Positions 3,391 to 11,036 of a DNA stretch of 64,000 bases are shown in pieces; the first letter of the stretch is position 1, and every line of letters starts with the position of its first letter. A model generated the notes under the pieces. It made no database searches. It was not told the DNA's origin and saw only the letters and a list, made by a program, of their open reading frames with translations. The position numbers and the translations under genes are program-made. The DNA is from Chamaelirium japonicum (Eukaryota > Streptophyta > Magnoliopsida > Liliales > Melanthiaceae), in assembly GCA_947650365.1 (NCBI GenBank), contig OX393553.1:69323716-69387715 (forward strand), given 5' to 3'.

Positions 3391-3495
3391 ATGCTCTCTC
3401 TCTCTCTCTCTCTCTCTCTCTCTCTCTCTATATATATATATATATATATATATATATATATATATATATATATATATATATATATATATATATAT
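3391..3495. repeat. (CT)n(TA)n compound microsatellite
   Basis: About 38 bp of CT repeat passes directly into about 66 bp of TA repeat. It forms the left flank of the TIR element that starts at 3496. Confidence 0.95.
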
Positions 3496-4793
3496 GGGTT
3501 GGGATCCGGAAACACACAGTTTTACCACCAATTTAAACACGGAGCCATAGGCATTGAATAGACCCGCTCAAACGGTTCAGATTCAAGGTGGGTTTCCTTA
3601 ACACGTCTGATCTAAAAGATGCATGGCTTGAGCTGAGCCGCAAAGAGGAGAGATTTTCGCCTCTTAACTTGGGATTCTTAGTTCTCACTCCATCTCATCT
3701 CCGTCTCTATCACCGAGACACAGCAACTCTCTCTCTATCTCTGTGTTCACATATTGTTAGTTTTTTTTCCAAGATCCCATCCCATCTCTTCCCACTCCCA
3801 CCTCTCTCTCTCTCTCTCTTTCTCTCTCTCTCTCTCTCTCTCTCTCTCTCTCTCTCTCTCTCTCTCTCTCTCTGTGTGTGTGTGTAGAGTTGAGATAGGA
3901 CCCTCTCCATATTGGCCCTCCCAAAGAAACTATACCCTACCGACGAGTTCAAATTTCCTCAAGTCGGTCGGTGGGTTCGACGTGCATCACAGCCGCAAAC
4001 GGTAGGCAGGAGTGCAATTCACTTGGGTCGCCTGCCATCGTGCAGCTGTAATGCGCATTGGATCCACCTACTGAGGCCGACCGGGAGGAGATTTGAACTC
4101 AATGTTAATGGCTACTCCAGACGGTGGCCGATAGGGAGGAGATTTGAACTCAATGCGCACGGCTACTCACACTACTTCAGGTTTACAAAAGCAAATTTTT
4201 TCAATCTACTATCCTTTTAGCCGATGAAGAATACCAAACTAAGAAAATCATTGTCAGGGTAGCCACACCTGATCTTGATCTAGGGCTTCGACAGAGCTTG
4301 GGGAAGAAGAGAAGGGGATCGGATCCAGCAGTGAACTTTGTCCACGGATGTGATCCGGAAACGAACAACGAAAACCATCTTTCTATCAGACCGGATCCCG
4401 ATCTAGGGCGCCGAGGTGAGAACGAACAGCGGGTTGGGATCTTAGAAAAAGTATGTGTGTGTGTGAGAAAGAGAAAGAGAGAGAGAGAGAGAGGTGGGAG
4501 TGGGAAGAGATGGGATGGGATCTTGAAAAAAAAACTTAAAACACAGAGTTAGAGAGAGAAAGTTGATGTATGTCGGAGACAAAGAGGGAGATGAGATGGG
4601 GTGGGAAGAACGAATCCCCAATTAAGAGGCGAAAATATCTCCTCTTTGCGGCTCGGCTCAAGCCATGCATGTTTTAGATCCGACGTGTTAAGGGATCTCA
4701 CCTAAAATCTGAACTGTTTGAGCAAGTCTATCCGACGCCTATGGCTCCGTGTTTAAATTGGTGGTAAAACTGTGTGTTTCCGGATCCCAACCC
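3496..4793. mobile_element. TIR element A (Mutator-like) in a (TA)n microsatellite
   Basis: The first 45 bases (GGGTTGGGATCCGG...) reappear in reverse at the right end (...GGATCCCAACCC). The inverted repeats continue for about 320 bp with moderate divergence, and both arms include a (CT)n run. TA repeat abuts both ends, so any target duplication is hidden in TATATA. Long TIRs starting with G suggest the Mutator superfamily. The interior (3890-4440) has no recognisable transposase; a diverged ~52-bp unit containing AGGAGATTTGAACTCAATG is duplicated at 4084 and 4136. Confidence 0.75.
3804..3885. repeat. (CT)n(GT)n microsatellite inside the left arm of element A
   Basis: A long CT run ends in GTGTGTGTGT. 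A shorter (GT)n(GA)n counterpart lies in the opposite arm at 4451-4492, so the microsatellite is part of the TIR and has expanded on one side. Confidence 0.9.
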
Positions 4794-4886
4794 TATATAT
4801 ATATATATATATATATATATATATATATATATATATATATATATATATATATATATATATATATATAAATATATATATATATATAT
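4794..4886. repeat. (TA)n microsatellite
   Basis: About 93 bp of TA repeat with one interruption. It separates element A from element B. Confidence 0.95.
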
Positions 4887-5246
4887 GAGGGTCGGGACGC
4901 TACATCTCAAAGCAACATTTTTGCTGCTTTAACAACCCACAACGGCCGTGTCACATGTGATCTCCGACCAGAATCAACATCAACAACCTCTAATCACCTC
5001 CATTGGTGATATCTGCTGACACCACCTGTCGGCATCCACCGATAGAAGACTCCGGTGACTACTTCCATTGTGAGCCGTCCATTCATCATCTCACCTCATT
5101 CGGCGACTTCCGATGACATCCGCAGCCGGCAAACACCTCCGGTGAGTTCTAACGGATGATATTTGCCGTCGTTCATGGCTTTGATAGCCACCGATGACCA
5201 GTCAAAGCAGCGAAGAAAGTGCTTTTGAATGTACTATCTTGTTTTC
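4887..5246. mobile_element. TIR element B, diverged, flanked by (TA)n and (CT)n(TA)n
   Basis: Starts GAGGGTCGGGACGC after the TA repeat. About 35 bp near the left end (containing TTGCTGCTTTAAC) matches the reverse complement of the right end (containing TCGCTGCTTTGAC) imperfectly. The interior is rich in CCGGTGA- and CACCTCCGG-like motifs and has no long ORF. Boundaries rest mostly on the flanking microsatellites. Confidence 0.45.
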
Positions 5247-5290
5247 CTCTCTCTCTCTCTCTCTCTCTATATATATATATATATATATAT
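5247..5290. repeat. (CT)n(TA)n microsatellite
   Basis: A CT run changes directly to a TA run, between element B and the Helitron-like end at 5291. Confidence 0.9.
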
Positions 5291-5390
5291 ACTAGTGCTG
5301 CCCGTGCCTGTCGGCACTGCAGCGGGCCGCCTTCGACAGTAACACATATGTCGGCACTGCAGCAAGCTGCCTTCGAAGGCAACACACCTG
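5291..5390 (-). mobile_element. possible Helitron 3' terminus
   Basis: Read on the minus strand, the stretch ends ...GGGCAGCACTAG|T. It is preceded by an imperfect stem (CTGC-GTGCC against GGCAC-GGGCAG) about 7 bp from CTAG, which is the arrangement of Helitron 3' ends. The next base is T within TA repeat, matching Helitron insertion between A and T. A 40-bp unit is tandemly duplicated at 5309-5348 and 5349-5388. The 5' (TC) end was not located. Confidence 0.35.
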
Positions 5391-5534
5391 AACGTCTTAG
5401 GCAACAAAACATATTGACGACAACACCAGCATTCATAGGGACACTCATTTCCTTGCTCGTGCCGATTGACACAAAGCGGGCACCTTCGGCACGACCAACT
5501 CCCCCTCCCCCTATAATCGATCAATCACAGCTGT

Positions 5535-9010: not shown

Positions 9011-9066
9011 GCGTCGCACACACAGAGGTGCATTGGACGGCTATCATAGCGCACCGCACCGAATCA
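9011..9066. mobile_element. remnant related to element F
   Basis: GGTGCATTGGACGGCTATCA and the following CGCACCGCACCG align with the right half of element F (GTGCATCAGACGGTTGTAGA...GTGCCGCACTT). The left half seems to be replaced by GA repeat. Confidence 0.4.
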
Positions 9067-9170
9067 TCTCTCTCTCTCTCTCTCTCTCTCTATATATATA
9101 TATATATATATATATATATATATATATATATATATATATATATATATATATATATATATATATATATATA
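9067..9170. repeat. (CT)n(TA)n compound microsatellite
   Basis: About 24 bp of CT followed by about 80 bp of TA, ending exactly at the start of element H. Confidence 0.95.
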
Positions 9171-9542
9171 GGGTCGGGATCTGTGGACATGTATTTTTGA
9201 CATGTTTTAACATGTCATCAAGAAGCCTGCATGGAGATTTCAGAATTCATTGAATTTTTATGGGGATGTTTAATTTACCATAGATGGCATATCTACAAAA
9301 AATCAACCGATTCTAAAACCTCTAGGTGCGTCAAATGTGTTCTTCAAATCAACGGTTAAAACTGACGATCAATAAACCTCAGCAAATTTGACACATCTAA
9401 AGGTTTCAGAATCACTTGATTTTTTGTGGATATGCAATCTATGATAGGGTGAGCATTGTCACAAAAATCCAGCCAATTCTAAAACCTCCATGTAGGTTTA
9501 CTTGATGACATGTCAAAAATACATGTCCACGGATCCCGACCC
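9171..9542. mobile_element. TIR element H (GGGTCGGGATC family) in (TA)n
   Basis: Left end GGGTCGGGATCTGTGGACAT, right end ATGTCCACGGATCCCGACCC. Inverted repeats continue inwards (TATTTTTGACATG against CATGTCAAAAATA; the TCTAAAACCTC pairs). TA repeat abuts both ends. Confidence 0.8.
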
Positions 9543-9645
9543 ATATATATATATATATATATATATATATATATATATATATATATATATATATATATAT
9601 ATATATATATATATAGAGAGAGAGAGAGAGAGAGCGAGAGAGAGA
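9543..9645. repeat. (TA)n(GA)n compound microsatellite
   Basis: About 73 bp of TA passes into about 30 bp of GA, between elements H and I. Confidence 0.95.
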
Positions 9646-10031
9646 GGGCAGGGACCCTGCACCTGAGGTGTAGCTTCATTGCTTCACCTCTCGCTTGTTT
9701 ACCACCCTAGAAGTTTTATAATTTGATGATTTTACGTGGATGTGTTGTCTAGGGTAAAGTGATCATCCTCACCAAAAATCAGCAAATTCTAGAACTTCTA
9801 AGGTCATCAAATATGCTAAGCAAAATTAACGGTTACAGTGAACGGTCGATAAAAGTTCGAACAATTGATGACACTAGAAGTTTTAGAATTTACTGATTTT
9901 TTGCGAGGATAATCACCTTACCCTAAAGAAACATCCACCAAAGATCACCAAATTCTAAAACTTCTATGGTGGTAAACTACACATGAGGTGCAGCAATGAA
10001 GCTACACCTCAAGTCTAGGCTCCCTTTTCCC
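9646..10031. mobile_element. TIR element I, shares ends with element C and interior with element D
   Basis: The right end, reversed, reads GGGAAAAGGGAGCCTAGACT, close to the terminus of element C. The left end is GGGCAGGGACCCTGCACCTG. Both ends contain GAGGTGTAGCTTCATTGC. The interior (ACCCTAGAAGTTTTATAATT, TCTAGGGTAAAGTGATCATC) aligns with element D. Flanks are (TA)n(GA)n and TATATATA. Confidence 0.75.
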
Positions 10032-10039
10032 ATATATAT

Positions 10040-11036
10040 AGGGTTTTTGTGCAAGCTCGTCAAGACTTACTTCAAGCAAAGTAGGGTTGGGCTGGGTTTC
10101 GGGCCAAGATGTGGACTGGGTTGCAGCCATGCCTATCCCACAGGGTTCTCGGGTCGAGCCGGACTGTGCCATCAACTGGGTTAGGCCAAGTTTGATCCAG
10201 ACGAGCCTAGGGTCATCGTGCCATTTTTACACCTCCAGCGCTATGCATACAAGAGTTTAGCTCCCCTACAAGCACACTTAGGTTCAGAGGCAGCGACACC
10301 TGATGTAGGCTTCGGGGCAACACCCACGAAACCTAAATTCAATTTAGACTTCGCACTTACATGTTTTCATTGAATGCATATTCATTTGTTTTCATTGATT
10401 GCATTTTTATCGGATTTCGTGCATGATAATATTTTGTTGTAAACCTGGTCGTGGACCCGCACTAGGAATTGTCCAAGTGTTGGTAGTGTCATATGTGGAC
10501 CAATCATCAAGTATGATGCGCATCCCTGGTACTGACAACATTTGTGACATTCAAATGTGCTCACCCATGGCGAGGACTACACTGTAACAATGTTCATCAT
10601 AGGTCGTGTGCACGGACCACATATGGGGCATACTGGTACCGAACTTAGCAATCCAGACCGTTTAAAGGTTTTCATCAGCCCGTCTGCGAGACAAGTGGTA
10701 TGCATCACATCAAGGACAATACGCACTCCTGTCACAGGATGCGGGGTTTGACAGGTGTAATCCATCTGTTGATGAACCATATCCAATCGTACTCAATAGG
10801 GATGACTTACCCTATATATTTGTCCTTCGTTACTGCTTAGGGCAACAACCCTTTGATAGTCACTCTTGAGGAGAGAGGAGAAAAACCCAAATTAAGGGTA
10901 TGTTTCCTAAGGTAAATGTAGAGCTCCATCTATGGTTTTGATGCTTCTTTTCTAAATCATTTCTTTGTTGATTTTATTAGAAAGATTCATCGAGGTTGTT
11001 TCCTATTGCATTCATTGATTTCCACATTTAGGAAAC
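10040..11036. other. unassigned spacer
   Basis: GC-moderate DNA with short open stretches on both strands around 10400-10790 and no recognisable protein family. 10068-10240 is rich in GGGTTGGG- and CGGGTCGAG-like words and ends in CATTTTTACACCTCC, which resembles the end of a decayed hAT MITE. Confidence 0.35.

Follow-up and report, generated by a model that had tools for sequence, protein, structure and literature searches.

The 64,000-nucleotide stretch of the Chamaelirium japonicum genome considered here (contig OX393553.1, positions 69,323,716 to 69,387,715; hereafter the window) raises the question of how a row of dissimilar terminal inverted repeat (TIR) elements came to be linked, nearly end to end, by TA microsatellites. 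A sequence-only reading had described a dense row of about ten TIR or fold-back elements at positions 3391-10040, with (TA)n or a compound repeat at nearly every boundary. Our analysis of the window, together with searches of the 1.52-Gb assembly of this plant, recovered nine elements and one remnant in this row, the links being tracts of (TA)n, either alone or compounded with (CT)n/(GA)n (Table 1). We consider it very probable that this is an array of the SaTar type, in which several families of non-autonomous Mutator-like elements (MULEs) entered (TA)n tracts by cut-and-paste with a fixed stagger. The principal observation is that the phase of the flanking TA tracts is locked by family: it is odd for E5 and for the E7/E1-type elements, and even, in one register, for E6.

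Pure (TA)n directly abuts both ends of six of the nine elements (E1, E3, E5, E6, E5b and E7); in the remaining three, E2, E4 and E8, this is so for one end only, the other adjoining the (CT)n or (GA)n part of a compound tract that continues into TA. The element starts given earlier stand, save that E4 starts at 7739 rather than 7737, 2 bp away. Of the 16 pure TA tracts in the window that reach 10 bp or more, 13 lie inside 3391-10040 (two pairs among these being halves of one interrupted tract) and three in the remaining 57 kb; a chance cluster was rejected, as the 13 fall within a tenth of the window. No element interrupts another in the window. An element with 8-bp duplications, which we take to belong to the hAT superfamily, lies within the array without TA, indicating that not every array member is TA-targeted.

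By core sequence the elements fall into six lineages, namely E1, E2, E3, E4/E7/E8, E5/E5b and E6 (with 79% identity between E4 and E8, and 85% between E5 and E5b), in agreement with the earlier count of at least six families. Fewer families are recognized by ends than by core, because E3 and E8 share their ends and the terminal GGGTYGGGATC, as read from the sequence, is common to E1 and E7. The earlier view of unrelated-looking families with one targeting preference is supported as to the shared preference, for E5, E6, E7 and E1, and is only partly true as to the unrelatedness. E8 is peculiar in combining an E4/E7-like core with E3-like ends, as though families had swapped ends. Long TIRs and G..C ends, as in MULEs, are present in the elements, though weakly in E2. 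Ends of the hAT-type TAGGG form were rejected since the base preceding GGG varies between T and A among copies, and a single large composite element was rejected because the families occur separately, and in other orders, elsewhere in the genome.

To place the window copies in their genomic context, we scored the best 40 of 3131 (E7), 1811 (E5) and 3638 (E6) first-look candidates, and cut out 30, 30 and 20 loci respectively; as only the best-scoring candidates were fetched, these copies are those most like the ones in the window, and the E5 and E7 samples include the window's own copies. A pure TA run of 8 bp or more directly adjoins one or both ends in 28 of 30 E5, 25 of 27 scored E7 (three of the 30 loci being dropped as no end could be snapped) and 18 of 20 E6 copies. 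For E1, ten matches derive from seven elements: eight have an end abutting (TA)n, in one case with a 2-bp GA in between, and the other two are truncated. Counts of end patterns cover the whole genome instead of the best copies alone, but detect exact ends only. Among 3118 exact E6 ends, 2732 (88%) come immediately after 10 bp of pure TA, while exact E5 ends do so 1925 and 1979 times in two pattern counts; by comparison, 103 matches to the E5 end have C/G at -5, a figure that includes some chance G-runs, and a backwards control gave 5. These results support TA-microsatellite targeting shared by several MULE-type families, genome-wide for E5, E6, E7 and E1; microsatellite flanks of E2, E3, E4 and E8 were seen in the window and at those fetched loci where these elements happened to occur. 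The possibility, raised by the sequence-only reading, that other copies lie mostly outside TA repeats does not hold for these four.

A duplication made within a repeat of its own sequence cannot be seen directly, but its parity can. An odd-length duplication in a TA repeat leaves the last base on the left identical to the first base on the right (AA or TT), whereas an even one leaves them different (AT or TA), and as slippage proceeds in 2-bp steps the parity of a flanking tract stays unchanged. Among intact copies that TA flanks on both sides, all 21 of the E7/E1-type are odd (11 AA, 10 TT), as are 20 of 22 of E5 (14 AA, 6 TT, 2 TA), whereas 19 of 20 E6 copies have the arrangement A|..|T, the other being TT. 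Segments lying between tracts, taken from the same loci and therefore not independent, gave a similar picture: 23 of 23 with GGGTC[AG]GG ends and 19 of 21 with GGGGAGGG ends are odd, and 13 of 16 of E6 are even. This sample comprises the 94 of 273 segments kept for their TIR score and GG..CC ends; the 179 left out, which lack this combination, serve as a control and show no phase lock (88 odd, 91 even). Among these 179, the segments assigned to E5 or E7, which have damaged ends, are odd in 31 of 50 cases, and those assigned to E6 are even in 17 of 23.

Pairing of ends by coordinates on part of C1 (E5 up to C1:58.88 Mb and E6 up to C1:53.84 Mb) gave odd parity for 17 of 20 E5 pairs spaced by 200-400 bp and for 23 of 25 spaced by 500-900 bp, some of which, being judged by coordinates alone, may be two neighbours; even parity was found for 19 of 22 E6 pairs. 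The fetched-locus, segment, intact-copy and fixed-orientation samples overlap, and the C1 pairing shares only few copies with them. The 25 more widely spaced E5 pairs, which lie 551-857 bp apart, probably represent a longer family with E5 ends, of which one fetched locus (L108) may hold a member.

When copies are placed in one fixed orientation both odd phases are present (E5, 12 AA and 13 TT; E7, 12 AA and 7 TT), which implies that the flank derives from the target and that the element carries no tract along with it. The even phase of E6 is AT in all intact cases, with one damaged segment being TA, and at its TA-flanked ends A precedes GGGG 2569 times and T 163 times, so that one register accounts for 94%. 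The window copies of E1 (TT), E5 (TT), E7 (AA) and E6 (AT) fit the phases of their families.

A MULE-type duplication of 8-11 bp was seen for E6 only, in a single copy outside TA, which carries an exact 10-bp duplication, ATTAAAACAT. In the window, the TATATATATA that alone separates E5 from E6 fits one copy of such a 10-bp duplication.

The sequence-only reading had suggested looking for a Mutator-type transposase with these ends, and a MULE transposase between matching ends was found, for the E1-type alone, in a decayed 4.9-kb transposon on C304. It retains parts of FAR1, the first 26 of 99 positions at the start of the MULE domain, and SWIM, and its ends match those of E1 at 83% across the terminal 47 bp. 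At another locus a 4.1-kb copy, in which a FAR1 domain is present, is bounded by a TA-adjacent E1-type 3' end and a 5' end without its first 20 bp. Relatives with MULE, FAR1 and SWIM domains occur elsewhere in the genome, including one with an 825-amino-acid open frame at C1:71471155-71473629, whose true ends were looked for but not found in the fetched DNA, which stops short of its 3' side. A FAR1/MULE/SWIM transposase of this type might also move the other families.

Similar arrays are found at other loci, where mixed families are linked via microsatellites in an order and membership that vary from locus to locus. At 26 of 29 E5 and 23 of 29 E7 loci (49 of 58) the query copy has other elements of the set within about 1.5 kb, with a mean of 2.5 and 2.2 further elements per locus, respectively. 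In 223 kb from 66 non-overlapping loci, picked around E1, E5 and E7 copies and including the window cluster, we counted 331 TA tracts that reach 10 bp or more (14.8 per 10 kb), whereas the remaining 53.3 kb of the window hold 3; this excess is partly due to selection because the loci were chosen for holding an element. A nesting heuristic applied to the loci returned eight split candidates (five E4, two E6, one E7), all located in the E6 palindrome or in cores that recur within a family or across families. A pair of E5 ends at C2:91027324-91027354 point towards each other, separated by no more than TAT (C2:91027338-91027340).

Taken together, these observations point to a scenario in which a MULE transposase would paste each element into a (TA)n tract, and newer elements would insert into the TA that flanks older ones to give a row of uninterrupted elements. 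It is plausible that arrays grow by such repeated landing, each insertion leaving more TA. The stagger would be odd for E5 and the E1/E7-type elements, most likely 9 bp, a value we infer because it is the odd duplication length reported for MuTAnT; for E6 it would be 10 bp, with insertion using TATATATATA and not ATATATATAT. We further regard it as rather likely that TA phase is a lasting record of the stagger which survives slippage, that co-resident families were pasted with different staggers, and that the E6 machinery picks one TA register, thereby reading phase to the single base.

Several observations weigh against this interpretation. The second E5-family copy in the window, E5b, has the arrangement T|..|A, contrary to the odd rule of its family; parity is likewise broken in two of 22 E5 and one of 20 E6 intact copies, and five of 16 segments assigned to E8 are even. 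The intact-copy count omits those end pairs without pure 6-bp TA on both sides, amounting to 11 of 32 for the E7/E1-type, 7 of 29 for E5 and 4 of 24 for E6. A direct 9-bp duplication outside TA was not found for E5 or E7: among five fetched E5-end matches with C/G at -5, one is not an element, one extends past the stretch, one is without a duplication, and the other two, each flanked by TA on a single side, likewise lack one; nor did any E5 or E7 copy turn up when the loci and the window were scanned generically for elements with GG..CC ends and duplications not made of TA. The C304 transposon, for its part, is interrupted by stops, with about 8 bp missing from the tip of one end, and no intact transposon copy with proven ends was seen.

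The alternatives differ in how they account for the phase. The SaTar authors, who found microsatellite flanks inconsistent with a 10-bp duplication, proposed that circular intermediates with TA filler between their ends enter by homologous recombination rather than by cut-and-paste (PMC5907723). The few copies here with duplication-free flanks or broken parity could be read in this manner, and our counts would also be compatible with a filler whose length is fixed, whether odd or even; but a filler of free length should result in random parity, and the locked, family-specific parity seen here makes the model very unlikely. That the TA tract is itself part of the element and copied along, or that the arrays are segmental duplicates, is scarcely credible. 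Tracts are nearly always present and intact E6 copies are almost single-phase, as this would predict, but E5 and E7 each show both odd phases in one orientation, one E6 copy is without TA, and array order and membership differ from locus to locus. A narrower alternative concerns E6, whose terminal A and T might belong to the element (AGGGG..CCCCT), in which case the duplication would be shorter and the transposase would not be reading the TA register. This would account for the A that precedes GGGG in 2569 of 2732 TA-flanked ends, but 163 ends have T, and in the single non-TA copy GGGG is preceded by T and CCCC is followed by A, the 10-bp duplication directly adjoining GGGG and CCCC, so that we regard this explanation as improbable.

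A further alternative, which is compatible with cut-and-paste insertion at a fixed stagger and alters only the order of events, is that the targets were short TA runs and that the long tracts grew by slippage after insertion; we place this only slightly below an even chance. Empty MuTAnT sites average nine repeats against fifteen per side in occupied flanks (PMC4486113), and maize TAFTA is cited as expanding from 6-8 bp (PMC5907723). In our loci tracts beside element-like ends have median lengths of 63.5 and 65 bp versus 44 bp for other tracts of the same loci, but it may just be that long tracts are the more frequent targets. The lengths of left and right tracts show no correlation (Spearman 0.03, n=94), and neither this nor the medians decides between growth before and after insertion.

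Table 1. Features of the array, of the rest of the window and of the related transposon (window positions, unless a contig is given)
Feature	Position	Description
(TA)n tract left of E1	3429-3495	preceded by (CT)n at 3394-3429
E1	3496-4793	TIR element; arms 251 bp, 86%; ends GGGTTGGGATCCGG; end related to the 4.9-kb MULE on C304
(TA)n between E1 and E2	4794-4886	one interruption
E2	4887-5246	begins GAGGGTCGGGAC; weak TIR; right end merges into (CT)n(TA)n; four related copies among fetched loci
Stretch between two TA tracts	5292-6264	not one of the TA-array elements
hAT-like element (presumed)	5535-5960 (5527-5968 with duplications)	TAGGGCTGGCAA..TTGCCACCTCTA; 8-bp duplication ACAGCTGT on both sides
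E3	6319-7709	long-TIR element; ends GGGAAAAGGGAGCC..TTTTTCC, common to E8
E4	7739-8091	fold-back element; core common to E7 and E8
E5	8121-8388	near-palindromic; GGGAAGGATACTC..CCCTCCCC
TATATATATA	8389-8398	sole DNA separating E5 from E6; length equals the 10-bp duplication of E6
E6	8399-8548	near-palindrome of 150 bp
E5b	8622-8915	second E5-family copy
Remnant	about 9009-9066	between (GA)n and (CT)n; E6-family look by eye only, sequence comparison gave no E6 match
E7	9171-9542	fold-back element; ends GGGTCGGGATC, E1-like
E8	9646-10031	core E4/E7-like, ends E3-like; right flank a 9-bp TA tract at 10032-10040
Tandem array	12181-12865	units of about 21 bp, around CAAAATTGAGTTGAATTAACT
zf-RVT	23752-24369 (-)	zinc-binding domain of reverse transcriptase; perhaps a remnant of a long interspersed nuclear element (LINE)
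CACTA (En/Spm)-like transposon	47693-51234 (-)	Transposase_21, DUF4218, Transpos_assoc and DUF4216 pieces
Decayed MULE transposon	C304:221801-226713	4.9 kb; TIR 230 bp, 95%; TA tracts on both sides

The way in which elements enter repeats is debated because the duplication is invisible inside a repeat. Parity and register counts offer a simple readout of the stagger for any assembled genome, and here favor cut-and-paste with a family-specific stagger; if phase is truly a stagger record, counting alone would settle whether microsatellite-targeted MULEs use this route. The present genome also adds thousands of copies for testing whether TA growth precedes or follows insertion. Among open-licence PubMed Central papers searched, we found none that uses tract phase to read the stagger.

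The cluster itself, which the sequence-only reading thought possibly undescribed, is of a known kind. SaTar arrays, described as mixed, microsatellite-linked rows of non-autonomous MULEs in guayule (gSaTar), rice (rSaTar), sorghum and citrus, likewise comprise small elements of multiple families in (TA)n and other microsatellites, with larger MULEs of similar ends in the same kind of surroundings (PMC5907723). Rice Micron, which is the same as rSaTar2, also targets TA microsatellites (PMC5907723), and Micron-like miniature inverted-repeat transposable elements (MITEs) have been tabulated across 207 plants (PMC12550479). The pineapple MITEs Ac-mMITE-1 and -2 are similarly abundant in (TA)n, share ends and cluster side by side, and some of their copies outside TA carry 9/10-bp duplications; their description, however, concerns two families and reports no autonomous element, whereas six core lineages and a decayed transposon with ends matching one of them are present here (PMC8449440). 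Medicago MuTAnT and AutoMuTAnT are comparable as TA-targeting MULEs with GGGG ends and a 4.9-kb Jittery-like relative between TA tracts. For MuTAnT, 9-bp duplications are given for the 14 of 218 copies outside perfect TA, precise duplication calling being impeded for most copies according to its authors, and the account deals with these 218 copies of one family, arrays apparently not being its theme (PMC4486113). TA-linked element arrays are thus already known from other plants, and it is the phase lock of the tracts that we did not find described in the papers searched: where many flanks were called inconsistent with cut-and-paste in the account of SaTar (PMC5907723), TA parity in this genome is locked to the family of the element.

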